DNA of 30,010 nt from a virus: the IMG/VR virus record IMGVR_UViG_3300032288_005342, positions 1 to 30,010 of that record; one strand, given 5' to 3'. This document shows positions 2,865 through 27,338 of this stretch, one piece after another; positions within the stretch are counted from its first letter, which is position 1, and every line of letters starts with the position of its first letter. Under the pieces are notes generated by a model. The model saw only the letters and a program-made list of their open reading frames with translations, did no database searches and had not been told where the DNA came from. The translations under genes were made by a program, and so were the position numbers.

Positions 2865-4463
2865 ATGGATAGTCAGAGTAAAACACTCAAAGATGTAATA
2901 AAAGAAGAATACAAGAAGTGTGCTTCTGACCCAATACATTTTATGAAAAAGTATTGTAAGATTCAGCATCCAACTAAAGGTAAGATGCGGTTTGAGTTAT
3001 TTCCATTCCAAGAAAAAACATTAGACCAATTTAATAAGAATCGTTACAATATAATTCTTAAATCCCGTCAGACAGGTATATCAACTCTTACAGCAGGATT
3101 TGCTTTGTGGCAGATGACATTCAATAGTGACTTCAATGTTCTTGTTATTGCCATCAAACAAGAGGTTGCTAAAAACTTGGTTACCAAAGTACGAGTAATG
3201 TACGATGGATTACCAAGTTGGTTAAAAGTAAATGAGGTTGAAGATAATAAACTTTCTTTACGATTGGCAAATGGCTCACAAATTAAGGCAGTTGCTGCCT
3301 CACCCGATGCAGGTCGTTCTGAAGCACTTTCACTTTTAGTAATTGATGAAGCAGCATTTATTGATGATATAGATGAGATATGGACATCCGCAACACCTGC
3401 TCTTTCAACCGGTGGTAGTTGTATTGCGTTATCTACTCCAAATGGAGTGGGTAATTGGTTTCATAAACAATGGGTAGGTTCAGAGGAAGGTAGTAATGAG
3501 TTTAATCCAATAAAACTACATTGGACAGTTCATCCTGAAAGAAATCAAAAATGGAGAGATGAACAAACTATAGTGCTGGGAGAAAAATTAGCAGCACAGG
3601 AGTGTGATTGTGATTTCGTATCTTCAGGTAACACCGTCATAGAAGCACAATACCTATTGTGGTATAAAGAAACTTTTGTAAAAGACCCGATTGAGAAAAC
3701 GGGGTTTGATGGTAATTATTGGAAATGGGAATACCCCGATTACACCAAATCATACATGGTATCTGCCGATGTGGCTCGTGGAGATGGTGGAGATTATTCA
3801 GCGTTTCATGTGTTTGATATTGTAAATAATGTTCAGGTTGCAGAATATAGGGGTAAAATGGATACCAAAGATTTCGGAAACTTTTTAGTAGGAGTTGCGT
3901 CTGAATGGAATACCGCACTATTAGTAATTGAAAATGCGAATGTGGGTTGGGCAGTTATTCAACAATGTATAGATAGAGGATATCCAAATCTTTATTACCA
4001 ATCTCAGGATTACAAATATGTTGATATTGAAAGACAATATAGCAACAAGTTGAGGGCAGAAGAGAAACGAGAGGTTGCAGGGTTTACAACATCTGTACGA
4101 ACTCGTCCACTTATCATTTCAAAATTAGATGAGTATTTTAAAAATAAAGCTATGGTAATACAATCAATTAGATTGATTGATGAACTATTTACCTTTATTT
4201 GGAGTGGTAGTAGAGCTGAGGCACTAAAAGGATATAATGATGATTTAGTGATGAGTTTTAGTATTGGATTATGGGTAAGGGATACCGCCCTTAGATTGAG
4301 ACAGGAAAGAATGGATTTAGCAAAACAATCACTGAATTCGTTTGAAGTTACCGGATTTTCAACTGGTAATAGAAACACATACCTTAACTCAAAGTTGAAA
4401 CAAGACCCATACAAAATGCAAATGGGAAAGGATACCGAAGATATTAAATGGTTATTGGGTTAA
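2865..4463 (+). CDS. 17: Terminase large subunit, gp17-like packaging motor and nuclease
   Basis: 532 residues. ATP-driven motor and nuclease that cuts concatemeric DNA and pumps it through the portal. N-terminal ATPase domain: FPFQEKTL (46-53) adenine-binding Q motif, Walker A SRQTGIST (67-74), Walker B LLVIDEA (157-163; D161, E162 catalytic), coupling motif ALSTPNG (188-194). C-terminal RNase H-like nuclease domain: SADVARGDGGDYSAF (300-313) with D302 and D310, LVIENANVG (353-361) with E356, and YNDDLVMS (457-464) with the last metal-binding Asp. It is shorter than T4 gp17 (610 residues) and has no intein. No small terminase is recognisable next to it. The start at 2865 is one base after the preceding stop and lacks a Shine-Dalgarno sequence, as usual in this window. 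Confidence 0.97.
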   Translation: MDSQSKTLKDVIKEEYKKCASDPIHFMKKYCKIQHPTKGKMRFELFPFQEKTLDQFNKNRYNIILKSRQTGISTLTAGFALWQMTFNSDFNVLVIAIKQEVAKNLVTKVRVMYDGLPSWLKVNEVEDNKLSLRLANGSQIKAVAASPDAGRSEALSLLVIDEAAFIDDIDEIWTSATPALSTGGSCIALSTPNGVGNWFHKQWVGSEEGSNEFNPIKLHWTVHPERNQKWRDEQTIVLGEKLAAQECDCDFVSSGNTVIEAQYLLWYKETFVKDPIEKTGFDGNYWKWEYPDYTKSYMVSADVARGDGGDYSAFHVFDIVNNVQVAEYRGKMDTKDFGNFLVGVASEWNTALLVIENANVGWAVIQQCIDRGYPNLYYQSQDYKYVDIERQYSNKLRAEEKREVAGFTTSVRTRPLIISKLDEYFKNKAMVIQSIRLIDELFTFIWSGSRAEALKGYNDDLVMSFSIGLWVRDTALRLRQERMDLAKQSLNSFEVTGFSTGNRNTYLNSKLKQDPYKMQMGKDTEDIKWLLG

Positions 4464-4466
4464 CCC

Positions 4467-4476
4467 ATATTTATAG
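4467..4476 (+). promoter_or_regulatory. ATATTTATAG motif (candidate late promoter core)
   Basis: A copy of the recurrent intergenic motif ATA(T/C)TTATA(G/C/A). It lies only two bases before the ATG at 4479. If it is a -10 element, the transcript for this start would begin at or after the ATG, so this copy may serve a different role or a downstream gene. Confidence 0.4.
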
Positions 4477-5318: not shown

Positions 5319-7202
5319 ATGGCAGAAGAAGTAAAAACAAATGGGTTCTTTGAGAGATTAAGAAAATTATTCTCTACTAAAGTAATCATTGCTAGAGATG
5401 AAAATGGTAAACGAAAAGTAGTAGACCATGAACAACAACAGCAACTTTCTAACCTTAAATCGTTAAAGGATAGATTCTATCGCCTTCAAACAGGATATAA
5501 ATACGAAAACTTTACAACACAATTATCATATTCTACAATTCGCAGAGAGTTATTTTTGGATTATGATGCAATGGATAACGACCCAATCATAGCATCTGCG
5601 TTAGATATATATGCAGATGAGTGTACTACTAAAAATGAATATGGTGATATTCTAACTATTCGTACCCAAAATCACGAAGTTAAAGAAGCACTTCATAATT
5701 TATTCTATGATATTTTAAATGTAGAATTTAATTTGTGGCCATGGGCTCGTAACCTATGTAAGTACGGAGACCAGTTTCTTGTATTAGAAATTGTAGAAGG
5801 TGAAGGTGTAGTTGGTATACATCCTCAATCTGTTTATCATGTTACAAGAACTGAAGGCCCGTATGACCCACAGCGTGTTAATAAGAAACAACCTGGTATC
5901 AAATTTACAATTGACCCCGATTATTTGGGTAAGCATGAGTATGATAACTATGAAGTTGCCCACTTCCGTCTATATTCTGATACCAACTACCTACCATATG
6001 GAAAGGCAATGTTGGAGAATGCAAGAAGATTATGGAAACAGATTACTCTTATGGAAGATGCGATGATGATTCATCGTATTATGAGAGCACCTGAAAAGCG
6101 TATCTTCAAAATTGATATTGGTAACATTCCTCCACAGGAAGTTGATAACTATATGCAGAGGATTATCAACAAAATTAAGAAGACTCCATTTGTAGACCAA
6201 AATACGGGAGATTACAATCTCAAGTATAATATGATGAACATTACAGAGGATTTCTTCATGCCAGTTCGTGGAGGTGATAGTGGAACTTCAATTGATACAT
6301 TAGCCGGATTACAATACGCTGCTATTGAAGATTTGGATTACCTAAAAGCAAAGATGTTTGCAGCTCTAAAAATACCGAAAGCATTTTTAGGATATGAGGA
6401 AGATATTAATGGTAAAGCAACTTTAGCAGCCGAGGATATTCGTTTCGCTAGAACTATACAGAGAATACAACGAGTAATGGTATCTGAACTTTCTCAAATT
6501 GCAATGGTTCACTTATTAGCAAACGGATTCAAGGGTATGGATGTAGTTGATTTTGAATTGGAACTAACCAATCCATCAACTATATACGAACAAGAAAAAG
6601 TAAATCTTTGGTCTCAAAAAGTTACACTTGCAAAAGATATTAAAGACCTTAAACTTCTATCATCTGATTTTATATATAACGAGATATTTCAATTATCACA
6701 AGACCAGATTGATAAGCATCGTCAGGATGTTGTACTTGATACATTTGATACCAACAGATTAACTAAGATAGAAAATGAAGGAGTAGACCCATATGAAGAA
6801 TCAAACCCACAACCTGGTGAGGGTGGTGAGGAAGGTACTAAATCTGCAGAAGGTGAAGCTCCTACAGAGGGAGAACCTGAAGTAGAGGAATCTATTGATG
6901 CAAGAACAGAAACATCTGCAGAAAATGGTGAAAAAGGTGGAAGACCTAAAACCGCTGGCAACCGAGGAAGTGATGAAAATGCGTTTGGAAGAGACCCATT
7001 AGGTAAAGCAGATGTAATGCGAAACTTTGGTAGAGATACCCGTAGTGCAAGGTTAGCAAACCGATTAAAAGATATTTCTACTAAAGAACAAGCACTTCGT
7101 GATAGTCTGAGAAAGAAAATACGAAAAGAAAGACTATTTGAATCACAGAACACCGATACGGGTTCATTACTGGATGATAAGAACATATTACCAGATGAAT
7201 AA
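5319..7202 (+). CDS. 20: Portal vertex protein, gp20-like
   Basis: 627 residues. Dodecameric portal through which DNA enters and leaves and onto which the neck attaches. The T4-family segments are present: an N-terminal basic stretch, SYSTIRRELFLDYDAM (69-84), DNDPIIASALDIYADECTTK (86-105), the Trp/Arg-rich wing and stem region, and YLKAKMFAALKIPKAFLGYE with the following DINGKATLAAEDIRFARTIQR segment (about 341-385). T4 gp20 is 524 residues, so this protein carries about 100 extra C-terminal residues: an acidic Gly/Glu-rich linker (about 490-530), a basic Gly/Arg segment, and a helical Arg/Lys-rich tail with ERLFESQNT near the end, a possible protease site. It follows the cupin gene with no gap. 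Confidence 0.96.
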   Translation: MAEEVKTNGFFERLRKLFSTKVIIARDENGKRKVVDHEQQQQLSNLKSLKDRFYRLQTGYKYENFTTQLSYSTIRRELFLDYDAMDNDPIIASALDIYADECTTKNEYGDILTIRTQNHEVKEALHNLFYDILNVEFNLWPWARNLCKYGDQFLVLEIVEGEGVVGIHPQSVYHVTRTEGPYDPQRVNKKQPGIKFTIDPDYLGKHEYDNYEVAHFRLYSDTNYLPYGKAMLENARRLWKQITLMEDAMMIHRIMRAPEKRIFKIDIGNIPPQEVDNYMQRIINKIKKTPFVDQNTGDYNLKYNMMNITEDFFMPVRGGDSGTSIDTLAGLQYAAIEDLDYLKAKMFAALKIPKAFLGYEEDINGKATLAAEDIRFARTIQRIQRVMVSELSQIAMVHLLANGFKGMDVVDFELELTNPSTIYEQEKVNLWSQKVTLAKDIKDLKLLSSDFIYNEIFQLSQDQIDKHRQDVVLDTFDTNRLTKIENEGVDPYEESNPQPGEGGEEGTKSAEGEAPTEGEPEVEESIDARTETSAENGEKGGRPKTAGNRGSDENAFGRDPLGKADVMRNFGRDTRSARLANRLKDISTKEQALRDSLRKKIRKERLFESQNTDTGSLLDDKNILPDE

Positions 7203-8155: not shown

Positions 8156-8573
8156 AATTCAGGAAATTGTTAAAGAAGAGTTAACTCCTAAAAAGAAACT
8201 TAAAAAGGAGGCTTCCGTAACTGCAAATGTTGCTGGATATGATACTCCTCGTGCATTTAACTCCGATGGTTCACACACTAAGGGGTATGTAAAGCGAATG
8301 GCTGGGGTAGCAGGATATTCAGCTGTGAATGAAAACAGATATTATGCATTAAAAAAAGAAGATAAAACTCCCAATCAAAAAATTGGTATAGGTATTCGCG
8401 AGATGAGAAAGCAGATTGGTGAGATAGAGAAATTCTTAGAATGGTATGGTAAGATTAAGAATGAGAATGGAATGAAGAGTAACGATTTTTGGAAAAGAAC
8501 AAATAAGCATATTTATAAGATAAAAGAGAGGTTACAAGGTATTAGAGAAAAGATTAACACACTTTATAAGTAA
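8124..8573 (+). CDS. Small head-region protein with targeting-like N-terminus (gp67/gp68 position)
   Basis: 149 residues. It starts MLSPIGRLRSKIQEIVKEEL, a basic amphipathic helix ending in IVKEE, then a TANVAGYDTPRAFN segment (34-47) and VAGYSAVNENRYYAL (62-76), the 'AGYxTPxAF' signature common in marine T4-like head clusters. The C-terminal half is basic and helical. Function unknown. Start at 8124 lies inside the end of the previous gene (32-base overlap); no other start keeps the amphipathic N-terminus. The N-terminal pattern recurs in the next genes and may be a capsid-targeting peptide cut by the prohead protease; this is inference. Confidence 0.75.
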   Translation: MLSPIGRLRSKIQEIVKEELTPKKKLKKEASVTANVAGYDTPRAFNSDGSHTKGYVKRMAGVAGYSAVNENRYYALKKEDKTPNQKIGIGIREMRKQIGEIEKFLEWYGKIKNENGMKSNDFWKRTNKHIYKIKERLQGIREKINTLYK

Positions 8574-9025: not shown

Positions 9026-9625
9026 ATGAAAACACTTTTAGTAGAGACAAGACTTTTTGAGGGTAAATTGCAAGAAAACGATAACGGTGTTGTTCTTGTT
9101 AAAGGTGTACTACAAAGAGCGGATGCACAAAACCAAAATGGTAGAGTGTATCCTAAAGAAATACTTGAAAGAGAAGTAAAGAAGTATCAACAACTTATTA
9201 AAGAAAAAAGAGCATTAGGTGAGTTAGATCACCCTGATAGCTCTGTAATTAATCTTAAAAATGTTTCCCATAATGTAAAAGAATGTCATTGGGAAGGTGA
9301 TGATGTTGTTGGTGTCGTAGAAATACTACCAACTCCATCTGGTAATATCTTAAAAGAATTATTAAAGTGTGGAATTCTATTGGGTATATCTTCCCGTGGA
9401 ATGGGTTCAGTAGAAAACATCGGAGATGGAAAAGTTCAAGTGGGTGAAGATTTTGAGTTATTAGGTTGGGATTTTGTATCTAACCCATCTACTCAGGGTG
9501 CATTTATGGAAACTCTTAATGAATCCGTAAAGAAAGATGTTCGTAAACAAATAGGAACAGATGTATGTGGTGAATGGTGCAAGACACAACACCTTATCAG
9601 AGAAATAATTAGTGAATTAAACTAA
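9026..9625 (+). CDS. 21: Prohead core protease, gp21-like
   Basis: 199 residues, close to T4 gp21 (212). Serine protease of the herpesvirus-assemblin-like phage prohead protease clan; matures the prohead by cutting scaffold, capsid and internal proteins. Visible features: NQNGRVYPKEILEREVKKY (37-55), the family's 'NGRxYP' segment; ELDHPDSS (66-73) with catalytic His69; GILLGISSRGMGSV (116-129) with the nucleophile Ser at 122 or 123; ELLGWDFVSNPS (144-155) with the acidic residues near the third catalytic position. METLNESVKK (161-170) near the C-terminus contains an L-x-E site and may be an autocleavage point. It precedes two very small genes and then the scaffold. Confidence 0.95.
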   Translation: MKTLLVETRLFEGKLQENDNGVVLVKGVLQRADAQNQNGRVYPKEILEREVKKYQQLIKEKRALGELDHPDSSVINLKNVSHNVKECHWEGDDVVGVVEILPTPSGNILKELLKCGILLGISSRGMGSVENIGDGKVQVGEDFELLGWDFVSNPSTQGAFMETLNESVKKDVRKQIGTDVCGEWCKTQHLIREIISELN

Positions 9626-9626
9626 T

Positions 9627-9800
9627 ATGAAACTTACTCAAGTAGAATTAAGAACCCTTATTAGAGAAGAAATAAAGAAATTGTGTGAGAATCTAATGGT
9701 GGCTTGCCGAAATTGTGGATGGCAGTGGAAATTCAAAGAAGGTGGAAACGACCCGTATCTATGCCATAAATGTGGTGGGCATGGTGTAATAATAAAATAA
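9627..9800 (+). CDS. 57-residue zinc-ribbon protein with targeting-like N-terminus
   Basis: Short gene translated by hand: it begins MKLTQVELRTLIREEIKKLC and continues with a compact zinc ribbon, C27-RN-C30-GWQW ... C46-HK-C49-GG. The sequence type 'CxxCGWxW...GG.DPYxCHKCG' is one I recall from many marine phages, usually annotated as hypothetical. The N-terminal 15-18 residues repeat the tag found on the two proteins before gene 21. It starts one base after the protease stop and lies in the same operon. Zinc binding is strongly suggested by the four cysteines; nucleic-acid binding or a packaged structural role is inference. Confidence 0.8.
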   Translation: MKLTQVELRTLIREEIKKLCENLMVACRNCGWQWKFKEGGNDPYLCHKCGGHGVIIK

Positions 9801-9821
9801 TCAAACTAAAACAAATAAGTT

Positions 9822-10019
9822 ATGTTAATAGTAAAAGTAAATGGAAATATTGAGAAAGCATTGAAACTTCTCAAAAATAAGGTTATCAAAACACAACAAG
9901 TTCAAGAGTTACAAAAAAGAACAGAGTATGTAAAACCATCGGTAAAGCGTAGAACTGAAATTAAAGATGCGATATACCGACAGAAAAAAAGAACTCAAAC
10001 TGAAAAAGATTACAACTAA
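9822..10019 (+). CDS. rpsU: Ribosomal protein bS21 (phage-encoded)
   Basis: 65 residues, the normal size of bS21. It shows V.VNGNIEKALK.LK (3-18), then the Arg/Lys-rich helix LQKRTEYVKPSVKRRTEI (30-47), and DAIYRQKKR (49-57). Alignment by eye to bS21 is straightforward, with KPSV and AxYxQK resembling Bacteroidota versions more than the KPTxERKRAKA type of Proteobacteria. bS21 sits near the 3' end of 16S rRNA on the small subunit and affects mRNA selection. Phage-encoded bS21 genes are known from environmental phages. The gene follows the zinc-ribbon gene by 21 bases, starts with aagttATG without a Shine-Dalgarno sequence, and is followed at once by a terminator, so it is co-transcribed with head genes and likely made late. 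Confidence 0.88.
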   Translation: MLIVKVNGNIEKALKLLKNKVIKTQQVQELQKRTEYVKPSVKRRTEIKDAIYRQKKRTQTEKDYN

Positions 10020-10024
10020 ATTTG

Positions 10025-10053
10025 AAGGAGAGAATAAAAAACTCTCCTTTTTT
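10025..10053 (+). terminator. Intrinsic terminator after rpsU
   Basis: AAGGAGAG (10025-10032) pairs perfectly with CTCTCCTT (10042-10049) around a 9-base A-rich loop, followed by a run of T to 10053 and more T-rich sequence. It closes the portal-distal head cluster ending with rpsU. Confidence 0.88.
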
Positions 10054-10075: not shown

Positions 10076-10085
10076 ATACTTATAC
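10076..10085 (+). promoter_or_regulatory. ATACTTATAC motif (candidate late promoter core)
   Basis: Variant of the recurrent intergenic motif, placed after the rpsU terminator and 103 bases before the scaffold ATG. With a terminator upstream, a promoter here is needed to express the scaffold and capsid genes. Confidence 0.5.
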
Positions 10086-10188: not shown

Positions 10189-11376
10189 ATGACAAGCAAA
10201 CTATTAAAAGAAGCAATTGCTGATGCAAAAGCCGTAAGAGAAACTGCTCTTGCTAATGCAAAAATCGCTCTTGAGGAAGCTTTCACTCCTAAACTTCAAT
10301 CTATGCTTTCTAGAAAATTAAAAGAAGAATTAGAAGGCGATGAAATTGAAGAGGATGAAGACCTAAAAGAGAACGATGAATCTTCCGAAATCGGTAAGGG
10401 TGATAACAAACAACCCGCAGCCAAAGCGTTTGATTCTGCAGCAGATTCTAATGAGCTAGGAAAAGCAGGTGTTAAAAAACAAACTGCAGCAACTGGTGAA
10501 GAGGATGATAATGTAGAAGTAGTCGCAGAAGGTGAAGACCTTGAAGAAGATGATGTTACTGGTGCAACCGCTGGAACTGGCCTTAATGTAAAAGAAGGCG
10601 AGGAAGGTGAGGAAGTACATGAAGGCGAAGAAATCGCTAAAGAAGGTGAAGAAATCGCTAAAGAAGGTGATGATGAACACGATATTGAATTGAGTGAAAT
10701 CATTGCCGAATTAGAAGATGAACTCGCTAAAGAAGGTGAAGAAATCGCTAAAGAAGGTGAAGAACCTGCTTATGAAGGTGAAGAACCTGTAGCTAAAGAA
10801 GGTGAAGAGCCTGTAGCTAAAGAAGGTGAAGAGCCTGTAGCTAAAGAAGGTGAAGAACTTGATTTAGATGAAATCCTAAGAGAAATGGGATATGGTGATG
10901 CACCTGCAGTTGAAGAAGATGAAGAGTTAGAAATTGACCTTTCAAAAGAAGGTGAAGAAACTGCTCCTAATGCTGACGCACTTCAAAAAGAGGTTGAGGA
11001 AAAAGAAGAGGAATTAAAAGAAGCATACAAAGTTATCAAGTCTCTAAAAGGTACAATCAATGAGGTTAACCTTTTGAACGCGAAACTTCTTTATGTTAAC
11101 AAACTATTCCGTTCTTACAACTTAACCAACGAACAAAAATCTAAAATCGTTGAGACTTTAGACAGAACCAAAAATGTAAGAGAAGTTAAATTGGTTTACT
11201 CTACTATCGCTGAGTCTTTCAAGGCTGGTGCTGGTGTAACAAGAAAACCCGTTGCTAAACTTACTGAAAGTTATGCATCAAAACCAGCTAAATCTACTGC
11301 CCCTGCAAAGAAAGTAATTTCTGAGAGTGTGGACATGGCAAATAGATTCAAAAAACTTGCTGGTATCAACAAATAA
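10189..11376 (+). CDS. 22: Prohead scaffold (core) protein, gp22-like
   Basis: 395 residues. Main internal scaffold around which the capsid assembles and which is later degraded by the protease. The N-terminus MTSKLLKEAIADAKAVRETA and the following EEAFTPKLQSMLSRKL (29-44) match scaffold proteins of marine T4-like phages. Residues about 45-265 are extremely acidic and carry KEGEE-type repeats (EEIAKEG, EEPVAKEG). Residues about 268-310 (LQKEVEEKEEELKEAYKVIK and onward) are coiled coil, then a helical C-terminus with KLTESYAS and VISESVDM, both fitting an (L/I)-x-E/S protease site. T4 gp22 is 269 residues, so the acidic repeat tract accounts for the extra length. It lies directly before the major capsid gene, as in T4. 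Confidence 0.9.
   Translation: MTSKLLKEAIADAKAVRETALANAKIALEEAFTPKLQSMLSRKLKEELEGDEIEEDEDLKENDESSEIGKGDNKQPAAKAFDSAADSNELGKAGVKKQTAATGEEDDNVEVVAEGEDLEEDDVTGATAGTGLNVKEGEEGEEVHEGEEIAKEGEEIAKEGDDEHDIELSEIIAELEDELAKEGEEIAKEGEEPAYEGEEPVAKEGEEPVAKEGEEPVAKEGEELDLDEILREMGYGDAPAVEEDEELEIDLSKEGEETAPNADALQKEVEEKEEELKEAYKVIKSLKGTINEVNLLNAKLLYVNKLFRSYNLTNEQKSKIVETLDRTKNVREVKLVYSTIAESFKAGAGVTRKPVAKLTESYASKPAKSTAPAKKVISESVDMANRFKKLAGINK
10591..10857 (+). repeat. In-frame tandem repeats encoding KEGEE units in the scaffold gene
   Basis: Imperfect 21-24-base repeats in frame. A 24-base unit encoding GEEPVAKE occurs three times in a row at 10777-10800, 10801-10824 and 10825-10848, identical or nearly so. A 21-base unit encoding EEIAKEG occurs at 10627-10647, 10648-10668 and again at 10738-10758. 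The near identity suggests recent slippage or unequal crossing-over. The product is a highly charged, probably unfolded spacer. Confidence 0.9.
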
Positions 11377-11393
11377 ACTAAACAACAAACACA

Positions 11394-13010
11394 ATGGCAA
11401 ATTTCAATGTAAAATCATTGCTTGAGGCAAAAAATCCTCAATCCATTATGTTGGAGCAAACTCGTGGACTTAAAAAGAAGTGGGATAAAACCGGCTTACT
11501 TGAAGGTTTAAGAGAAAGAGAACAACATTCAATGGCGGTTCTATTAGAGAACCAAGCTCAGCAACTTCTTGCTGAAGCATCTCAGACCAACGCAAACGGT
11601 CAGGGTTCTGAAGAATGGTCTGGTGTAGCACTTCCACTTGTAAGAAGAATCTTCGGTGAAATCGCTGCAAAAGAGTTCGTTAGCGTTCAACCTATGAACC
11701 TACCTTCAGGACTTATCTTCTTCATGGATTTCAAATATGGTAACACTAAAGGTGATAAGACTGCTCTTAGCTCACTTTATGGTGGTACAGGTGCGAAATT
11801 CGGTAGAACTGATGCAGTTTCTGGTGGTCTTTATGGTAACGGAACATATGGATATTCACTTCCTTCCCAATCTATTTCAACTACCGTAGCAGTAGGTGCA
11901 ACTACCGCTTCATGGGCAGATGTAGGTTTCCGCCAAGAGTATTCTGCATCAATGGCTGCATCTCAGCTAAAGAAAATTACTATTGCGGCAAACCAGTTAA
12001 CAAACGCAGATTTTGAAGCAGTAAAATCCTTTACTTTAGTTCAATCTGGTATAGTTGCTAACTATAATGAATTTGCTACACATGATTATGCTGCAGCAAC
12101 TGCGTCATTCATCGTGTCTGCATCTCGTACAGACCACTTTACTACATTTACAAGTGTAAGATATAGCACTCAGCCTACATCTTTTGCTCGTGGTGATTTT
12201 GAAGACCAGAATCCTATCGTTGATGGTGGTGCTGGTGCATCTTCAGGAACTAATTTGAATATTCCTGAAATTGATCTTGAGTTGAAGAGTGAATCCATCG
12301 TTGCCAAGACTCGTAAGTTAAAGGCAGTGTGGACTCCTGAATTAGCGCAAGACTTGAACGCGTATCACTCAATTGATGCTGAAGCTGAATTAACTTCAAT
12401 GTTAAGTGAGTATATCTCATTGGAAATTGACCTTGAGATTCTTGATATGTTACAAGTTAACGCTCTAACTACGGATTACTGGTCAGCAACCGTAGGTGAG
12501 GAATACAACCCTTCAACTGGCGTATGGGCCGGTGGTAACTCTTCACTTGCTTATCAGAAGTCAACATGGTTCCAGACTCTTGGTGTGAAAATCAACAAGG
12601 TGTCTAACAAAATCCATCAATTGACGATGAGAGGAGGTGCAAACTTTATCGTAGCTTCTCCTGATGTATGTACGATTCTTGAGTCTATCCCTGGCTTCCA
12701 TGTGAATGCTGAGAAGGATGCACTTCAGTTCGCAGCAGGTGTATCAGTAGTAGGTAGCATTTCTAATCGTTACACAGTTTATAAGAACCCTTACATGACC
12801 CACAACCAAATTCTGTTGGGTTACAAAGGTGCTAACTTCTTAGAGACTGGTGCCGTTTACGCTCCTTATGTACCTCTAATTATGACACCTCTTGTCTATG
12901 ATCCTGATAACTTCACTCCTAGACGCGGTGTTATGACCCGTTACGCTAAGAAGATGGTAAGACCTGAATTCTATGGTCGCATCTTCGTGAAGGATTTGAA
13001 CTTAATCTAA
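11394..13010 (+). CDS. 23: Major capsid protein, gp23-like
   Basis: 538 residues (T4 gp23 has 521). HK97-fold shell protein. Recognisable T4-family segments: LVRRIFGEIAAKEFVSVQPM (82-101) with MNLPSG following (T4 has 'GVQPMNSPTG'), FKYGNTKGDKTAL, the central IVAKTRKLKAVWTPELAQDL region (T4 'SRALKAEYSIELAQDL'), and a C-terminal FTPRRGVMTRYAKKMVRPEF. The N-terminal about 61 residues are Leu/Glu/Lys-rich and helical, like the T4 delta peptide; LLAE61/ASQT resembles the T4 maturation site (FLTE65/AEIG), so the mature protein probably begins at Ala62. The start follows a 17-base A/C-rich gap. Codon choice looks more C-ending than in neighbouring genes, consistent with high expression. A strong terminator follows. 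Confidence 0.97.
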   Translation: MANFNVKSLLEAKNPQSIMLEQTRGLKKKWDKTGLLEGLREREQHSMAVLLENQAQQLLAEASQTNANGQGSEEWSGVALPLVRRIFGEIAAKEFVSVQPMNLPSGLIFFMDFKYGNTKGDKTALSSLYGGTGAKFGRTDAVSGGLYGNGTYGYSLPSQSISTTVAVGATTASWADVGFRQEYSASMAASQLKKITIAANQLTNADFEAVKSFTLVQSGIVANYNEFATHDYAAATASFIVSASRTDHFTTFTSVRYSTQPTSFARGDFEDQNPIVDGGAGASSGTNLNIPEIDLELKSESIVAKTRKLKAVWTPELAQDLNAYHSIDAEAELTSMLSEYISLEIDLEILDMLQVNALTTDYWSATVGEEYNPSTGVWAGGNSSLAYQKSTWFQTLGVKINKVSNKIHQLTMRGGANFIVASPDVCTILESIPGFHVNAEKDALQFAAGVSVVGSISNRYTVYKNPYMTHNQILLGYKGANFLETGAVYAPYVPLIMTPLVYDPDNFTPRRGVMTRYAKKMVRPEFYGRIFVKDLNLI

Positions 13011-13033: not shown

Positions 13034-13069
13034 AAAAAGGGGAGAGCAATCTCCCCTTTTTCTTTTTTG
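13034..13069 (+). terminator. Strong intrinsic terminator after major capsid gene
   Basis: AAAAAGGGGAGA (13034-13045) pairs perfectly with TCTCCCCTTTTT (13050-13061), a 12-base-pair stem closed by a GCAA tetraloop (GNRA type). The descending arm ends in T5, followed by c and T6. It ends the scaffold-capsid transcript 24 bases after the gene 23 stop. The A-rich ascending arm would also form a bidirectional terminator, though no opposing gene exists. Confidence 0.95.
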
Positions 13070-13100: not shown

Positions 13101-13457
13101 ATGGAAGATATTCTATCAGTTTTATTTCACTCAAGAACACAGAGTCATGTATTCCATTTGGGAACTGATTCTTACTCACAACATATTGCATTACAAAAAT
13201 ACTATGATGGTATAGTTGCTATTGTTGATGGGTTAGCTGAAAGTTGGCAGGGGAAGTATGGAAAAATTCAATTTAAGGCTATTGGTGGTCTTGAACAAAA
13301 TGAAGGTTTAGAATCTGTAATATCTTATTTTGAAAAGATTCTCAAAATTGTGGTAGAAAAAAGAAAAGATATCAAAGAATCATATATACAAAATCAAATA
13401 GATAATGTTGAACAACTTATCTATTCCACTCTATATCTCTTAAAGGAATTAAAGTAA
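13101..13457 (+). CDS. Ferritin/Dps-like four-helix protein
   Basis: 118 residues, all-helical. Residues 15-47 (SHVFHLGTDSYSQHIALQ, then KYYDGIVAIVDGLAE) align without gaps to the ferroxidase helices of E. coli Dps: H16, H28, Q32, D43 and E47 fall at the exact spacing of Dps H51, H63, D67, D78 and E82. Only the D67 position is changed (Gln). I recall a phage family with this signature annotated DUF5856. The C-terminal half has two more predicted helices (67-90, 92-118). At 118 residues it is shorter than Dps (about 167) and lacks its DNA-binding lysine tail, so iron storage or DNA protection is not established; a structural use of the fold is equally possible. Flanked by promoter-like motifs on both sides, so it may form its own unit. 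Confidence 0.7.
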   Translation: MEDILSVLFHSRTQSHVFHLGTDSYSQHIALQKYYDGIVAIVDGLAESWQGKYGKIQFKAIGGLEQNEGLESVISYFEKILKIVVEKRKDIKESYIQNQIDNVEQLIYSTLYLLKELK

Positions 13458-16402: not shown

Positions 16403-19336
16403 ATGGCAAAGGTAGTCGTAAATACGGATGAGAACATAGTAACCGTATTATCAGATGGTACAACCAAAATCGTAAAAGTAACTGCGGTTGACCAGAATCG
16501 GATAATTAAGGTTCAAACTCCTGGCCCTAAAGGTGAGAAGGGTACAGACGGCGCAGCTTTTACAGGTACTCTAACAGGTTCTTTAAGTGTATCGGGTACT
16601 ATCCTTTTAGATGGTAATTTTAGTGGTAGTGGACAGATTATTGCTCAATCTTTTACGGGTTCATTATTTGGAACCGCTTCATGGGCAAGTAGAGCAGTTA
16701 CCTCTTCTTATGTTTCGGGTTCAGTATTCACCTCCGCGAACCCAGCCCTATCGGCAAGTTATTCACTTAGTTCATCATATAGTATAAGTGGGTCGCATTC
16801 AATAACCTCATCGTACGCATTAACCGCTTCTTATGTAAATCCTTTATATCAAGATGTAATCATAACGGGTTCACTATATGTAACCCAATCTCATATCTCA
16901 ACCGTTGATTGGATTGATTTTACAACAATGGTTAACCCACCCCATCAAGAAGGGAGAATACATTGGATTGATGATACAAAAACAATACAGGTTGATACCG
17001 ATGTGGATGGACTGATGATTGAATTGGGACACCAACACGCCGTACGAATTAGAAACAATAGTGGTTCTCCTATCAGTAAAGGTAAGATAGTTTACATAAC
17101 AGGTTCTCAAGGAAACTTACCATTAATTGTTACCTCATCCATCGAAAGTGATAGAGTATCTGCAGGTACATTGGGTATGGTAGCACAAACCGTAAATGAT
17201 AATAGTAATGGATATGTTATCACAAGGGGTATTATCAGAGGAATAAATACAAATGCGTATATCGGTGGAACACCTCTATATTTGTCTACCTCTGGTGATT
17301 GGTCATCAACTGCACCCGAAGCACCATTGCATGAAGTTCGTATAGGTAAAATAATTACCCAAGCAACACAAGGAACTATTTACTTAGACATAATGAATGG
17401 CTATGAAATAGAAGAATTGCATGATGTTGTTGATACGAACAAACAGATTGGAGATTTGTTAGTTAGAAGTGGTAGTAATGTTTGGAAAAATACAAAACAA
17501 CTAACTGGTTCATACGGGTTGACAGGTAGTTTATCGGTATCAGGAAGTATAACCGCAACAAATCTAACAGGTACTGCTTCGTTTGCAACAACCTCATCTT
17601 ATTCCTTAACTTCATCGTACGCACTTAATGTTCCTTCGGGTGTTGGATTTCCTTATACAGGTTCAGCCCAAATAACAGGTAGTTTAGGAGTCACAGGTTC
17701 TATTTCTATTGTAAGTGGCTCATTAATAGGAACTTCATCAAACGCGATTACTTCATCGTATGCATTAACTGCATCACATGCATTAGGATATCTCCCACTT
17801 ACAGGGGGTACAATAAATGGAGATGTTATTCTTAATGGTACTGCATCTATTGCATTTTTAAATGTAATATATGAAAGTTCATCTGTAATTATATCAACGG
17901 GTAGTAATATATTTGGCGATGCTGCTAATGATTCTCAAACCTTGTATGGAGCCGTATCAATTCCAACAGGAAGTTTAAGGATATCAGGTAGTACACTTAT
18001 AACAGGTAATCTTTTTGTAACGAGTGGAATAACAGGTAGTTTATTTGGTACAAGTAGTTGGGCACAAAATTCAATAACTGCATCATTTGTATCAGGAGCA
18101 GTGTATACTTCTGCTAATCCTGCACTATCTGCATCTAATGCTGTATCTGCTTCTTACACAATAACTGCATCATACTCATTAAGTAGTTCTTTAGCCCAAA
18201 CATCAAGTAATATAGTTGGAGGATATGTATCATCTTTTAACACAAGACAAGGTGCAGTAACTTTACAAGCAACAGATATTAGTGGATTGGGAGTAGGTAT
18301 TATATCATCATCTGCATTCACCTCATCATGGTCAAATAACTCAGTAACTGCTTCCTATGTAACAGGAGCAATATTTACTTCAGCAAATCCAGCACTCTCT
18401 TCTTCGTATGCATTGAGTGCATCATTTGCAAGAACCACTGCAACTGCCAGTTATGTAACGGGTTCAATTTATACATCAACTAATCCTGCGCTATCTGCTT
18501 CATATGCTCTAACTGCATCATACGCACTTAATGCAGGTGGAGGTGCAGGTGTAGGATTTCCTTTTTCAGGTTCGGCACAAATTACAGGAAGTTTAGAATT
18601 AACGGGTTCTCTTTATGTAAGTGGAACTTTATATGGTGATGGAAGTGGATTAACAAATCTTCCATTTGGGAATACAAAAAAATTAATACAAACCACACCT
18701 TCTACAACTTGGTCGTTTTCACATAACTTAAATGAACAATACCCTACAATAACCGTATTTGATTCAAACGGAGATGTAGTCATACCAGGTAGGATAGAAG
18801 TAGTTGATGATGATAATTTAAAGGTATACTTTAATAATGCAACTTCTGGTGTAGTAGTAGCAGTTGTAGGTGGAACTGCAGAAACCGCATCATTTGTTAC
18901 TGCATCAAATGTATGGGGGCCGTTTGGTAGTAATTCAATATTTTCATCTTCTTATGCCTTAACCGCCTCTTACGCTCTTAATGGGGGAGGTGGTACGGGA
19001 GTAGGATTCCCATATACAGGTAGCGCGGGTATAAGCGGTTCACTTTATGTTGTGGGCCCCGCTAATATTATTAGTATCCCATCATATCAATCTAACGATT
19101 TCTTTTTGATACGAAATACTACGACAACCTTTAAAATAGCTAGTTCATCAGGTGTACAAATAACATCATCCGCTGAAATTCCACTTCAGATAGCCGGTCA
19201 AAATAGTCAAAGTTTATTTTATGTGTCACAGAGTGGAATGATTGTATTAGCAACTTCATCCGTAGTATTATCTGAACCGGCCCCAAATGGTGGAATATAT
19301 TTTACCTCTACAGAATTTTTTGTTGGATTATCCTAA
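16403..19336 (+). CDS. Large tail-fibre protein 1, repeat-rich with collagen-like segment
   Basis: 977 residues. After a beta-rich N-terminus (1-38) it has a short collagen-like stretch PGPKGEKGTDG (40-50), then shuffled repeats of TGSLFGTASWA, SxVFTSANPALSASY and SSYALTASYALN type. A globular insert (about 170-355: ELGHQHAVRIRNNSGSPISK, then GTLGMVAQ..., TPLYLSTSGDW, EELHDV) is a domain I know from many phage tail fibres. SSFNTRQGAVTLQATDISGL (about 610) and a WSFSHNLNEQYPTITVFDSN module (about 772) follow. No intramolecular chaperone (S74-type SDxxxK) is visible at the C-terminus. It likely forms a trimeric fibre for host binding. Unusually high Ser (about one in five residues). Confidence 0.85.
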   Translation: MAKVVVNTDENIVTVLSDGTTKIVKVTAVDQNRIIKVQTPGPKGEKGTDGAAFTGTLTGSLSVSGTILLDGNFSGSGQIIAQSFTGSLFGTASWASRAVTSSYVSGSVFTSANPALSASYSLSSSYSISGSHSITSSYALTASYVNPLYQDVIITGSLYVTQSHISTVDWIDFTTMVNPPHQEGRIHWIDDTKTIQVDTDVDGLMIELGHQHAVRIRNNSGSPISKGKIVYITGSQGNLPLIVTSSIESDRVSAGTLGMVAQTVNDNSNGYVITRGIIRGINTNAYIGGTPLYLSTSGDWSSTAPEAPLHEVRIGKIITQATQGTIYLDIMNGYEIEELHDVVDTNKQIGDLLVRSGSNVWKNTKQLTGSYGLTGSLSVSGSITATNLTGTASFATTSSYSLTSSYALNVPSGVGFPYTGSAQITGSLGVTGSISIVSGSLIGTSSNAITSSYALTASHALGYLPLTGGTINGDVILNGTASIAFLNVIYESSSVIISTGSNIFGDAANDSQTLYGAVSIPTGSLRISGSTLITGNLFVTSGITGSLFGTSSWAQNSITASFVSGAVYTSANPALSASNAVSASYTITASYSLSSSLAQTSSNIVGGYVSSFNTRQGAVTLQATDISGLGVGIISSSAFTSSWSNNSVTASYVTGAIFTSANPALSSSYALSASFARTTATASYVTGSIYTSTNPALSASYALTASYALNAGGGAGVGFPFSGSAQITGSLELTGSLYVSGTLYGDGSGLTNLPFGNTKKLIQTTPSTTWSFSHNLNEQYPTITVFDSNGDVVIPGRIEVVDDDNLKVYFNNATSGVVVAVVGGTAETASFVTASNVWGPFGSNSIFSSSYALTASYALNGGGGTGVGFPYTGSAGISGSLYVVGPANIISIPSYQSNDFFLIRNTTTTFKIASSSGVQITSSAEIPLQIAGQNSQSLFYVSQSGMIVLATSSVVLSEPAPNGGIYFTSTEFFVGLS
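18212..18292 (+). repeat. NTRQG module copy 1 (copy 2 at about 22376-22455)
   Basis: Encodes VGGYVSSFNTRQGAVTLQAT then DISGLG. The gene at 22087 encodes VGGYVTSFNTRQGSVTLAAT then DISGLG. Related to the 'VNGxxGxVTLxAsDIg' linkers common in phage fibres. Boundaries approximate. Confidence 0.8.
18677..18882 (+). repeat. HNL-type module copy 1 (copy 2 at about 21502-21708)
   Basis: Encodes KLIQTTPSTTWSFSHNLNEQ, continuing with YPTITVFDSNG, VIPGRIEVVDDDNLKVYF and SGVVVAVVGGTA. The protein from 21250 carries the same module with about two-thirds identity (KLTQTTPATVWSFTHNLGER ...). Boundaries are approximate. Confidence 0.8.
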
Positions 19337-19342
19337 CTTAAT

Positions 19343-19352
19343 ATATTTATAG
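19343..19352 (+). promoter_or_regulatory. ATATTTATAG motif (candidate late promoter core)
   Basis: Recurrent intergenic motif in the 42-base gap after tail-fibre gene 1, 26 bases before the ATG at 19379. Confidence 0.55.
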
Positions 19353-19378
19353 TCAAATAACATTTAAATAGTAAAATT

Positions 19379-20710
19379 ATGGCAGTTTGGAAAAAAGTAA
19401 TAGTATCGGGCTCAAACGCGCATCTAAATCAAGTAACCGCAAGTATATTTAGTGGTTCACAATTCTCTGGCTCATTCTTCGGAAATGGTTCAGGATTATC
19501 AGGAGTAACCGCCACTCCAACTTTCCCAACGACAGCTAAAACTGATTTAGCGACAACTGATAAGTTTTTTATAAACGATGATGCAGGCAACGCAACATCG
19601 GGTAACAAACAAGTCACATATGCTAACTTAGTAACGGATTTGGCAGGTAGTGGTGCAGGAACAAGTAACCTTACCACAACCGATACCGGAGATAGTTTAG
19701 CACTTACTTCAACTATTTCAGGTTTAACCTCTGTTCAAGCAACAAGTGTAACTGCTTCTATATTTTCATCATCTTTAGCAGCAGGTGGTACAACTACATT
19801 TATAGGTACTGCATCTTTTGCGGTTGGTTCAACAAACGCAACGAACGCAGCTAATATTGCTGTAACTGATACCACTGCAGGTATTGGTCCTTACTATATT
19901 ACATTCGTAGATGCAACATCAGGAAATGAAGCACTAAGAGTTGATAGTAGTACATTAACATACAACGCAACAACTAATACAATAACAGGAACAGCATCAT
20001 TTGCTGGAACATCATCTTGGGCTAATGGTGCGGCGTATAGTTCATTGACTGGTATCCCAAGTGGTATTGTATCAGGTTCTTCATTAGATTCACCAGCTCA
20101 AGGTGAGGTAAGATTAACTACAAACGGAGTTCAGGGTTCTACAATTGATTTAGGATTACAGACAACTGATTCTCCTACTTTTGCAGGTGCAACAATCAGT
20201 ACTAACGCATTACAGGTAAACAACACAAATGGTATTACCACTAACGCGGCTACATTCCCGATTGCACCATCTGCTACCACAATCAATATTGGTACAACAA
20301 CCAATACCGCAATTAATATTGGTACAACTGCAACGACAGTTACTATACCAGGTAACCTTAATGTTCAAGGCGCAACTACAATCATAAGTTCAAGTAACTT
20401 AACCGTATCGGATAAATTCGTATTCATTTCATCGGGTTCAACATCCGCTGCAAACGAAGGTGGTATAATTGTATCAAATGCATCAAACTCAAGTGGTTCA
20501 GCCTTCTTCTACGAAGGATCTAATACTAGATGGGCATTAGCTCCCGCAGTTGGTGCAACTGATTCAGGCGCTACACCAAACAGCTTTATAGTATCTGTAT
20601 CGGGTTCAACCGCAGATCCGACAGGTAACCCTACATATGGTGGAAGTGCAACTGGATATGGTAATATGTTTATTAATACAACAACAGAAGATATTTGGAT
20701 ATTCGTTTAA
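19379..20710 (+). CDS. Tail-fibre/structural protein 2
   Basis: 443 residues, Thr/Ser/Asn/Gly-rich and beta-helical in character. N-terminus MAVWKKVIVSGSNAHLNQVT is nearly the same as that of the protein at 21250 (MPAWKKVITSGSNASLNQVT), so the two probably share an attachment module. Then come TASIFSGSQFSGSFFGNGSG units, a region of NIGTTTNTAINIGTTATTVT repeats (about 307-326), and a C-terminal domain SDKFVFISSGSTSAANEGG ... TRWALAPAVGA ... GNMFINTTTEDIWIFV that I recognise from other marine phage fibre proteins. No catalytic motif seen. Probably part of a distal or side fibre. Confidence 0.8.
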   Translation: MAVWKKVIVSGSNAHLNQVTASIFSGSQFSGSFFGNGSGLSGVTATPTFPTTAKTDLATTDKFFINDDAGNATSGNKQVTYANLVTDLAGSGAGTSNLTTTDTGDSLALTSTISGLTSVQATSVTASIFSSSLAAGGTTTFIGTASFAVGSTNATNAANIAVTDTTAGIGPYYITFVDATSGNEALRVDSSTLTYNATTNTITGTASFAGTSSWANGAAYSSLTGIPSGIVSGSSLDSPAQGEVRLTTNGVQGSTIDLGLQTTDSPTFAGATISTNALQVNNTNGITTNAATFPIAPSATTINIGTTTNTAINIGTTATTVTIPGNLNVQGATTIISSSNLTVSDKFVFISSGSTSAANEGGIIVSNASNSSGSAFFYEGSNTRWALAPAVGATDSGATPNSFIVSVSGSTADPTGNPTYGGSATGYGNMFINTTTEDIWIFV

Positions 20711-20728
20711 TATTTAAAATAATAAGTT

Positions 20729-20953
20729 ATGAATAGTTTTTTGGCAGCAATTTCTTCAAAACAAAAGGAGCAAGATTTAAAGAAACAAGAATCGTTACAG
20801 CCAATTATTAATCAAGATGAACTAACTAAAGAAGAAATTCAATTGTTAGTTGAAACAATGAGAAACTCAACATTTAGAGGTGAGTATGTAGAATTGTTTT
20901 ATAATACTATAATGAAACTTCAAAATCAATACACTAAGTTGCAACAAAAATAA
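20729..20953 (+). CDS. Small helical protein A between fibre genes
   Basis: 74 residues, charged and helical, no Cys. After a Lys/Gln-rich N-terminal segment, LTKEEIQLLVETMRNSTFRG (32-51) and a helix NTIMKLQNQYTKLQ resemble the next gene's FTESELQIIRQSLDIIQLYG and KLEQ helix, suggesting a diverged pair. Starts with aagttATG and ends nine bases before its partner. I recall small 'FTxxELxxIxxxLdxI..kGkda' proteins among phage tail genes; function unknown, perhaps a fibre-assembly chaperone by position. Confidence 0.65.
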   Translation: MNSFLAAISSKQKEQDLKKQESLQPIINQDELTKEEIQLLVETMRNSTFRGEYVELFYNTIMKLQNQYTKLQQK

Positions 20954-20962
20954 TTATAAGTT

Positions 20963-21145
20963 ATGGATTTATTTTCTGTAGATTTTACTGAATCGGAACT
21001 TCAAATAATTAGACAATCTTTAGATATTATTCAATTGTATGGAAAAGATGCAAAATTAATTGCTAACCTTCAAATTAAGTTGGAACAAACTTTAATAGAA
21101 ATTAATCAAAAATTATCATCCTCAAAACCACAAAAGGTTAAATAA
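20963..21145 (+). CDS. Small helical protein B between fibre genes
   Basis: 60 residues: two predicted helices, FTESELQIIRQSLDIIQLYG (8-27) and KLIANLQIKLEQTLIEINQK (32-51), then a basic tail. Likely paralogue of the preceding gene product. Starts with aagttATG. The gene lies between two fibre genes that share an N-terminus. Function unknown. The pattern is that of a helical hairpin. Confidence 0.65.
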   Translation: MDLFSVDFTESELQIIRQSLDIIQLYGKDAKLIANLQIKLEQTLIEINQKLSSSKPQKVK

Positions 21146-21154
21146 TATTTTTTC

Positions 21155-21164
21155 ATATTTATAG
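21155..21164 (+). promoter_or_regulatory. ATATTTATAG motif (candidate late promoter core)
   Basis: Recurrent intergenic motif, 85 bases before the ATG at 21250 and immediately before the structured leader at 21169-21234. Confidence 0.55.
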
Positions 21165-21168
21165 AAGA

Positions 21169-21234
21169 TTACCATCGGCCCGAAAGGGAAGTGGGCCCAT
21201 GCACGGCATAAGTGTGTGTATCCAACCATGGTAA
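21169..21234 (+). ncRNA. Predicted three-way-junction RNA in the leader of the gene at 21250
   Basis: Three helices can form together: P1 TTACCAT (21169-21175) with ATGGTAA (21228-21234); P2 GGCCC (21177-21181) with GGGCC (21193-21197); P3 ATGCAC (21199-21204) with GTGTAT (21216-21221, one G-U pair). An alternative inside P2 is CCC-GAAA-GGG (21179-21188), a GNRA tetraloop hairpin. The segment is far more GC-rich than any other gap in the window. It starts four bases after the promoter-like motif, so it would be the transcript's 5' end. It is not a tRNA (no T arm, no anticodon arm), and I do not recognise a known riboswitch or self-cleaving ribozyme core. Confidence 0.55.
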
Positions 21235-21249
21235 CTAAAACGACATACT

Positions 21250-22059
21250 ATGCCAGCTTGGAAGAAGGTCATTACATCAGGATCTAATGCTAGCCTTAAT
21301 CAGGTAACAGCATCATTTATATCCTCTTCACGAATTACAGGTAGTTTATTTGGAAGTTCATCGTATTCGTTAACTTCCTCATACGCATTAAATGGTGGTG
21401 TAACCCAAATAGTAGCTGGTACTAATATCAGTATATCTCCTACAAATGGATTAGGAGCAGTAACAATAAATTCTACAGGTGGAAGTGGTGTAGGTGCTGT
21501 TGCTAAATTGACACAAACCACACCAGCAACCGTTTGGTCGTTTACGCATAATTTAGGAGAAAGATATCCTGTTGTAAATGTTTATGATTCAGCTGGTGAT
21601 GCTCTTGTACCGGGTAGGATTGAAACGATTGATTCTAATAACCTTAATGTTCATTTTACAATTGCCACTTCAGGTACGGCAGTTGCAGTAGTTGGCGGCA
21701 CTGCTCCTACTACAGCTTCTTACTCAAATACATTTGTAGTATCATCAAGTTTACTTTCATCACAACAAAACTTTGATGTAGATACAGGAACAGAGGTAGT
21801 AGCAACTATAAACACAGGTAGTTATTCTGCCGCTTTTTTTGATTATTTTGCAAACGATGGAACTAACTATAGAGCAGGAACCGTCATGTCAGTATGGAAT
21901 ACAACGGGAACAATCAAGTATACTGATAACTCAACGGAAGATATAGGAAATACTTCGGGAGTTACTCTTTCAGTTGTAGGAAATGGAAGTAATGCAGAGT
22001 TAAGAGCAACGGTTACAACAAATAATTGGAATGTTAAAGCGTTCGTTAGGGCTATATAA
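21250..22059 (+). CDS. Tail-fibre protein 3 with HNL-type module
   Basis: 269 residues. It opens MPAWKKVITSGSNASLNQVT like the protein at 19379, followed by TGSLFGSSSYSLTSSYALNG repeats (about 30-49). The HNL module (about 86-155: TQTTPATVWSFTHNLGERYP, VYDSAGDALVPGRIETIDSN, SGTAVAVVGG) is shared with fibre protein 1. The C-terminal domain (about 170-269: NFDVDTGTEVVATINTGSYS, then DYFANDGTNYRAGTVMSVWN) is beta-rich and ends in FVRAI. It is preceded by the structured leader. Role in host adsorption is inferred from composition and neighbours. Confidence 0.8.
   Translation: MPAWKKVITSGSNASLNQVTASFISSSRITGSLFGSSSYSLTSSYALNGGVTQIVAGTNISISPTNGLGAVTINSTGGSGVGAVAKLTQTTPATVWSFTHNLGERYPVVNVYDSAGDALVPGRIETIDSNNLNVHFTIATSGTAVAVVGGTAPTTASYSNTFVVSSSLLSSQQNFDVDTGTEVVATINTGSYSAAFFDYFANDGTNYRAGTVMSVWNTTGTIKYTDNSTEDIGNTSGVTLSVVGNGSNAELRATVTTNNWNVKAFVRAI
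21502..21708 (+). repeat. HNL-type module copy 2
   Basis: Second copy of the module at about 18677-18882 in fibre gene 1. DNA similarity is clearest at acacaaaccacacc and over the YP..VYDS and PGRIE codons. Boundaries approximate. Confidence 0.8.
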
Positions 22060-22070
22060 AATAAAAAAAG

Positions 22071-22080
22071 ATATTTATAC
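22071..22080 (+). promoter_or_regulatory. ATATTTATAC motif (candidate late promoter core)
   Basis: Recurrent intergenic motif ending six bases before the ATG at 22087. If it is a -10 element the mRNA would be leaderless or nearly so. Confidence 0.45.
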
Positions 22081-22086
22081 TAGATT

Positions 22087-26960: not shown

Positions 26961-27338
26961 ATGGCATTTGTAAAATCAACATCAACCGTAACAGATACAG
27001 CACTAACTGTTCCAAATTTAACAGGTGGAACAGATGGGAGGGTAGTAAGAATTACTGGAAACAATACAGCTACCGATGCATCAAATACAAATACAATTGG
27101 TCAGTTGAATTCACTACTTTTTAAACAAGGAGGAATTTATTATTCATCGGGATTGATTACCGGATTAAGTGGATTAAGTGCAGGTACATCTTACTTTCTT
27201 TCTACAGGTGGAACTTTAACCGCCACCGCACCAACTCCAACATCACCCACAACTACAGGAGTTAAAGCTGTATACATAGGTTTTGCAATTAACACAACGG
27301 ATTTAATTTTCCGTCCACAATTTCCAATCGCAGGATAA
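26961..27338 (+). CDS. Small tail-fibre-like beta protein
   Basis: 125 residues, Thr/Gly/Ser-rich. Segments DGRVVRITGNNTATDASN (25-42), GLSAGTSYFLSTGGTLTA (69-86) and GVKAVYIGFAINTTDLIF (100-117) parallel the globular insert of fibre 1 (KGKIVYITGSQGN, GTPLYLSTSGDWSS, EVRIGKIITQATQGTIYLD), so it looks like a stand-alone copy of that domain. Start 11 bases after the C1q-like gene. Its TAA stop overlaps the ATG of the following methyltransferase (TAATG), meaning translational coupling. Confidence 0.7.
   Translation: MAFVKSTSTVTDTALTVPNLTGGTDGRVVRITGNNTATDASNTNTIGQLNSLLFKQGGIYYSSGLITGLSGLSAGTSYFLSTGGTLTATAPTPTSPTTTGVKAVYIGFAINTTDLIFRPQFPIAG

Follow-up and report, generated by a model that had tools for sequence, protein, structure and literature searches.

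A gene for ribosomal protein bS21 was identified within the head gene cluster of a phage genome fragment of 30,010 nucleotides (IMG/VR record IMGVR_UViG_3300032288_005342), which is referred to as the window. The phage belongs to an immuto-like lineage where bS21 shares its strand with the head genes, whereas 151 of the 157 relatives that could be placed encode bS21 on the opposite strand. Three other observations are also new. The opposite-strand bS21 genes of the relatives carry a promoter-like element, GTCAAA-N18/19-TATTTATA. Nearly all phage bS21 genes lack the extended Shine-Dalgarno (SD) sequence by which Flavobacteriaceae autoregulate rpsU. Phage bS21 with an aromatic residue at position 54 is accompanied by the absence of SD use, though in a single independent contrast and with one clear exception. 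Phage bS21 genes were already known, bS21 being the ribosomal protein that phages carry most often, and what the window adds is a distinct phage lineage whose bS21 is on the head-gene strand. Bacteroidota bS21 is one of the factors that determine if mRNA can base-pair with the 16S tail, and most Bacteroidota leaders are SD-less.

Bacteroidota myoviruses that encode bS21 with a conserved aromatic residue and late expression have been reported by Chen et al. 2022, where phage bS21 transcripts were abundant alongside structural genes and selection for phage transcripts by divergent bS21 was proposed (PMC9723584). Ribosome exchange by phage bS21 has been discussed by McNutt et al. 2023 (PMC9976891). 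The initial annotation had implied as new that phage bS21 may replace or top up the host copy late in infection and keep the anti-SD tail hidden. This hypothesis is in substance that of both papers. The terms 'promoter', 'leader', 'autoregul-' and 'terminator' are not used in the body of the Chen et al. 2022 article, and the published work examined mentions neither the SD-less leaders of phage rpsU nor the promoter-like element of the opposite-strand phages.

Identity and features of bS21

The window product matched PF01165 Ribosomal_S21 in Pfam (E 2.8e-13, 49.8 bits, cut-off 27) and the equivalog TIGR00030 in NCBIfam (score 38.3, cut-off 28.95). Its best solved relative is the bS21 chain of 7jil (E 1e-8), the ribosome of Flavobacterium johnsoniae (PMC9723584). 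The recognition of the 65-residue product as bS21 in the initial annotation is confirmed by these three matches. The two best-matching solved chains are 43-46% identical to the product over 53-55 residues. Tyr52 of the product occupies the column of F. johnsoniae Tyr54 in the alignments, so the aromatic residue at Fj54 (F. johnsoniae numbering) is present. Tyr54 of F. johnsoniae bS21 stacks on A1534 of the 16S tail (PMC9976891). The segments KPSV and AIYRQK had both been described as Bacteroidota-like. This description holds only for A-x-Y-x-Q, which contains the Tyr54 equivalent, because KPSV is common to bS21 of other phyla.

The window bS21 resembles that of F. johnsoniae (7JIL; PMC9976891) in family, Tyr54, and the KPS and A-x-Y segments. 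It differs in the absence of an extended SD leader, in the phage-type alpha1-alpha2 segment (NKVIKTQQ, where hosts have RKF(E/D)KTG), in Glu at Fj37, and in the loss of Arg33. The AF2 model consists of two helices (residues 10-33 and 39-64) joined at the KPS turn with pLDDT of 86. The Foldseek search with this model returned no significant match, a helical protein of 65 residues being an uninformative query. The comparison with the closest relative (L002) gave dS of 0.76, dN of 0.063, and dN/dS of 0.08, thus the protein is under strong purifying selection.

Phylogeny of bS21, gp23, and terL

The nearest genome matches to the window bS21 are all from Bacteroidota (best 80 of 80, counting one MAG labelled Chlorobiota). 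The bS21 tree was constructed from 106 proteins and 65 columns without a broad outgroup of other phyla, and many of its forks are open. The window bS21 forms a group with those of L002, L003, L182, and L183 (96% SH-aLRT). This group is nested in a phage bS21 clade of 44 rows (97%) among Bacteroidota rows. The phylogeny that the initial annotation had suggested as a check therefore gave, in a poorly resolved tree, no placement that contradicts it, and the genome matches, this placement, and the Tyr54 equivalent agree on a bS21 of Bacteroidota type. Within the reach of this analysis, no outcome that the initial annotation had named as refuting turned up.

The gp23 tree exhibits a different topology. 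The window lineage is found with immuto, Mel-JY01, LR756508, and RM378, and the phages with opposite-strand bS21 are set apart (99% SH-aLRT). The discord between both trees indicates that the histories of bS21 and the capsid differ. The simplest reading is that bS21 may have been transferred between phage lineages. Repeated capture of bS21 with convergence would be an alternative for a protein so short. The nearest isolates by terL are Flavobacterium phage immuto (55.4% identity) and Microcystis phage Mel-JY01 (55.0%). The host phylum is probably Bacteroidota.

Position and strand of bS21 in the window and related phages

The head cluster of the window is T4-like and lies on one strand in the order terL, gp20, protease, CxxC protein, bS21, scaffold, and gp23 (Table 1). 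The CxxC protein has no Pfam match above the cut-off. The scaffold ORF has no Pfam or PHROG match, and its name rests on position and synteny.

Table 1. Features of the head gene cluster of the window.
Feature	Position	Strand	Evidence
Terminase large subunit (terL)	2865..4463	+	Pfam; terL comparison with isolates
Portal gp20	5319..7202	+	PF07230
TATTTATA box, candidate late promoter of the 8579-protease-znf-bS21 unit	8510..8517	+	Motif enrichment (predicted)
Prohead core protease (Peptidase_S77, gp21-type)	9026..9625	+	PF03420, 101.9 bits
CxxC...CxxC protein of 57 aa (znf), upstream neighbour of bS21	9627..9800	+	ORF call
bS21 translation initiation region without SD	9797..9821	+	Duplex energy +1.8 kcal/mol
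bS21 (rpsU-like) gene	9822..10019	+	65 aa, ATG start; Pfam, NCBIfam, and PDB matches, alignments, AF2 model
Intrinsic terminator closing the protease-znf-bS21 unit	10024..10053 (stem-loop 10024-10050 and T tract)	+	RNA fold
TACTTATA box directly 3' of the bS21 terminator, candidate scaffold-gp23 promoter	10077..10084	+	Predicted
Putative scaffold / prohead core protein	10189..11376	+	Position before gp23, kept synteny
Major capsid protein gp23	11394..13010	+	PF07068, 264 bits
Terminator after gp23	13034..13061	+	Scan and fold, -18.8 kcal/mol

Other features were observed outside this cluster. Downstream of gp23, at 13101-13457, is a gene with DUF5856 (PHROG 'starvation-inducible transcriptional regulator'). 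Four proteins (977, 443, 269, and 931 aa) at 16403-24882 contain repeated GSLFGT(A/S)S and SYALTASYALN-type segments; they resemble tail-fibre or adhesin arrays and are possibly recombination material. Weak methyltransferase-like proteins (Methyltransf_24 and Methyltransf_25, below curated cut-offs) flank the structural cluster at 2249-2863 and 27338-28033. The window contains no tRNA gene and no Rfam match.

The survey covered 168 viral bS21 loci, of which 157 could be placed relative to head genes. In 151 loci the bS21 gene lies between the protease and the portal and runs opposite to the head genes. It is found between the protease and the scaffold on the same strand, as in the window, in six loci (L002, L003, L004, L182, L183, and Mel-JY01). 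The other 11 loci have no head gene in reach. The protease-scaffold slot is retained in relatives of only about 60% MCP identity. A ferritin-like gene directly precedes bS21 in L003 (7459-7989, Pfam Ferritin 61 bits) and, by resemblance, in L182 (3271-3795).

A divergent bS21 gene was also found directly before the scaffold gene of the 484-kb phage LR756508.1 (L022; 9810-10049, Pfam 39.9 bits), which tblastn with the window bS21 protein had not picked up. The immuto genome has no bS21 anywhere, though its head gene order is the same as that of the window. The gene is therefore dispensable in kin, and SD-less late translation does not in itself require it. A tblastn search of the window with the portal-side neighbour of the opposite-strand bS21 gave no match, and the neighbour on the other side is the protease.

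The phages of clades a-e of Chen et al. 2022 (PMC9723584) are similar to the window in their Bacteroidota-type bS21 with aromatic residue 54, in its location within terL-portal-protease-gp23, and in the phage-type divergence at Fj21-28. However, their bS21 lies without exception on the other strand, between the protease and the portal, as in the 151 sampled loci. The window also represents a different lineage, given the gp23 split when the opposite-strand loci are taken as Chen-type, and its terL is about 25% identical to those of the Chen-type phages. Mel-JY01 (PP395634) has bS21 in the same slot and strand as the window, with terL 55% and gp23 about 50% identical, but has Lys in the Tyr54 column and clearly uses SD (z -5). 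The phage vB_FspM_immuto is the nearest isolate by terL, has the same head order, and is SD-less, but differs in having no bS21. The pelagiphages HTVC008M and Mosig EXVC030M (PMC6375957) are also large phages that encode bS21; unlike that of the window, their bS21 has no aromatic residue 54, occurs in SD-using phages, and lies among replication genes.

Terminators and candidate promoters

The terminator 3' of bS21 (-12.1 kcal/mol, z -2.9) is kept in the 91%-identical relative L002. It was missed by the consensus scanner because its loop is 9 nt. The late-gene neighbourhood closed by a terminator, as proposed in the initial annotation, is thus found in the window with bS21 between the protease and the scaffold.

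The TATTTATA boxes in the window start at 4468, 7225, 8510, 13482, 15960, 19344, and 22072, and the TACTTATA boxes at 10077, 13075, and 25972. The box at 8510 sits within the ORF preceding the 8579 unit. The TATTTATA box is enriched upstream of the window genes (6 of 28 leaders, 0.2 expected), is over-represented upstream of immuto genes (6 of 21 leaders), and is found in 173 of 727 leaders of the opposite-strand bS21 phages (15 expected). The box TA(T/C)TTATA is likely a late-promoter element of the window phage, immuto, and the opposite-strand bS21 phages. Some of these boxes end 3-7 nt 5' of the ATG, and a gap so short suggests leaderless messages. Together with the terminator ends at 10050 and 13061, the boxes suggest two transcription units, 8579-protease-znf-bS21 and scaffold-gp23.

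The opposite-strand bS21 genes also carry GTCAAA, mostly 18-19 nt before a TATTTATA-like box and at most 75 nt upstream. The combined element is present in 44 of 72 distinct opposite-strand bS21 leaders and in 22 of 727 other genes (Fisher odds ratio of 50, with related leaders counted as separate). The loci include L005, L007, L012-L018, L110, L153, and L196-L218. The box ends 4 nt 5' of the ATG in 17 of the leaders bearing the element, and these messages may be nearly leaderless. The element is promoter-like, specific to bS21, and perhaps not of the late class. Many opposite-strand relatives thus have a promoter-like element of their own for bS21, whereas the window bS21 has neither GTCAAA nor a TATTTATA box directly upstream.

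Shine-Dalgarno use and bS21 leaders

Duplex energies were calculated with the 16S tail that we take to be ACCUCCUUUCU, which may differ in the actual host. The mean energy of the 33 window starts is -1.31 kcal/mol, compared with -1.26 for shuffled leaders, and strong SD-like pairing (-6 kcal/mol or lower) is found at only two of these starts. The energies of bS21 (+1.8 kcal/mol) and gp23 (+2.0) denote no pairing. These values bear out the earlier remark that essentially no start in the window has SD. The leaders of immuto are SD-less like those of the window (-0.89 against -0.73 kcal/mol shuffled), whereas Mel-JY01 exhibits a clear SD signal (-5.63 against -3.28). Adenine is enriched at -12/-13 of the starts in the window lineage and immuto.

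The rpsU leaders of Flavobacteriaceae have SD down to about -17 kcal/mol, in line with PMC9976891. The extended SD of the autoregulated Bacteroidota rpsU type (pairing below -13 kcal/mol) is absent from the window bS21. The leaders of 152 of 166 phage bS21 genes are above -4 kcal/mol, and only three reach -10 or lower. L185 (-13.4 kcal/mol) and L193/L023 (-12.1) retain an extended SD of host type (AAAGGAGG, AGAGGAGGT), and their bS21 is possibly autoregulated like the host rpsU. L023 is LR756501.1 of 735 kb, with bS21 at 12001-12201.

The statement that the phage copy lost the SD of the host was considered and set aside. It is true in comparison with Flavobacteriaceae, but weak SD is also found in 57 of 80 sampled Bacteroidota rpsU genes (above -4 kcal/mol) and, in a separate set, in 22 of 31 Flavobacteriales loci. 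Loss of rpsU autoregulation is for the window phage a lead, not a result.

Residue signatures of phage bS21

The Fj54 column of the 168 sampled loci consists of Tyr in 162, Phe or His in five, and Lys in Mel-JY01 as the exception. Chen et al. 2022 reported divergence of phage bS21 at Fj21-28 (PMC9723584). The opposite-strand phages have S-K-V-I-K-T-(K/R)-Q at these positions, where hosts have R-K-F-E-K-T-G-V, and they also differ at Fj33 and Fj37. Fj27 is Gly in 91% of hosts and Lys or Arg in 99% of opposite-strand phages, Fj28 is Gln in 98% of these phages, and Fj33 is Arg in 100% of hosts and 17% of these phages. The bS21 of L003 and L182 keep several host residues and lack most of this signature.

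The SD delta is -0.16 +/- 0.54 kcal/mol for viral loci with aromatic residue 54 (n=141) and -2.73 +/- 1.11 for those without it (n=82), which include the Mel-JY01 group. Tyr54 was rejected as a predictor of SD absence across phages. The tree yields a single independent contrast for this co-variation, and LR756508 breaks the rule with Met at the Tyr54 position although its region is without SD use. The association is a correlation that is consistent with bS21 matching the ribosome type of the host, and no more.

Discussion

We hold with moderate confidence that the gene supplies Bacteroidota-type bS21 late and free of feedback, which would keep 30S subunits replete and the anti-SD hidden. In this T4-like phage of a Bacteroidota host, bS21 would probably be expressed together with the head genes, late and without the autoregulatory SD leader of the host. 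It would bind 30S subunits that lack bS21, which may be newly assembled or may have lost a loosely held host copy, and its tyrosine would be placed on A1534 of the 16S tail. The anti-SD of replete subunits would then be tucked away and initiation would be tuned to SD-less messages, and essentially all phage messages in the window are among these. Incorporation into ribosomes, late timing, and the effect on initiation are what we infer. The observations in support are the identity of the protein, its Tyr54 equivalent, Bacteroidota kinship, the absence of SD, the head-cluster slot with its terminator, and purifying selection, and the slot is common to six sampled relatives and LR756508. The reading is also consistent with experiments where F. 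johnsoniae ribosomes without bS21 were poorer at initiation on SD-less mRNAs but more efficient on rpsU, and where Y54A or truncation of bS21 increased translation of strong-SD reporters (PMC9976891). Several observations stand against the supply of bS21: immuto is a related isolate without the gene, LR756508 has the slot and no SD signal but no aromatic residue, and Tyr54 and SD co-vary in one independent contrast. Phage bS21 enters E. coli ribosomes, and pelagiphage bS21 leaves them nearly inactive in vitro (PMC6375957), thus incorporation need not help translation.

Phage bS21 might instead replace the host copy to form specialised ribosomes, where the alpha1-alpha2 changes (NKVIKTQQ, Glu at Fj37, and loss of Arg33) favour phage messages. 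The same substitutions recurring in different phage lineages where hosts are almost invariant (Fj27, Fj28, and Fj33) agree with this, as do the divergence at Fj21-28 and the selection for phage transcripts proposed by Chen et al. (PMC9723584). We regard it as unlikely. L003 and L182 occupy the same slot without most of the signature, and phage leaders are SD-less like most Bacteroidota leaders, hence leader differences give no support to selective phage translation and no known leader feature is there to discriminate on. Ribosomes that carry host bS21 would also suit SD-less phage mRNAs, so it does not follow that these are preferred to host messages. A preference of this kind would have to originate in the alpha1-alpha2 segment specific to phages. 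Host rpsU may be suppressed if its leader bears an SD. In the full form of this shut-off, phage bS21 would fill the ribosomes, the bS21-less pool that translates SD-bearing rpsU would vanish, and host bS21 production would stop while the SD-less phage copy would still be made. The experimental autoregulation of rpsU (PMC9976891) and the contrast between the weak phage leaders and those of Flavobacteriaceae speak for it, but the many weak rpsU leaders of Bacteroidota and Flavobacteriales and the strong SD kept in two phage lineages (L185 and L023/L193) make it improbable.

A role outside the ribosome, such as RNA binding in head assembly or packaging, is very improbable. The position in the head cluster of most sampled phages with this bS21 type and the extraribosomal role proposed for bS21 in the OLE RNP (PMC12054373) would suit it, but the tyrosine that faces the ribosome (Tyr54) has been retained, the bS21 gene of pelagiphages is located among replication genes, and in 11 sampled loci no head gene is within reach. 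It is hardly credible that a captured host bS21 was retained by chance as a passive passenger, a reading that we disfavour: the gene is absent from the related immuto, but dN/dS of 0.08 with dS of 0.76 and a slot kept at about 60% MCP identity argue against it.

The supply of bS21 may be extended to its origin. Bacteroidota phages might have acquired rpsU together with the SD that autoregulates it and lost this SD afterwards, and the feedback-proof bS21, which replete ribosomes would produce, would saturate 30S subunits and silence the SD-dependent host rpsU. The strong-SD lineages L185 and L193/L023 have a near-basal position in the phage bS21 clade, where an intermediate of SD shedding would be expected. 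We consider this extension doubtful, and ribosomes would carry phage bS21 during head production if it is true.

The window represents a second Bacteroidota phage lineage with bS21, where the gene and the head genes share one strand and the host regulatory leader is absent. It offers simple testable contrasts between phage and host leaders, between the presence and absence of Tyr54, and between the same slot with and without bS21. These contrasts bear on the question of whether phages remodel ribosomes.
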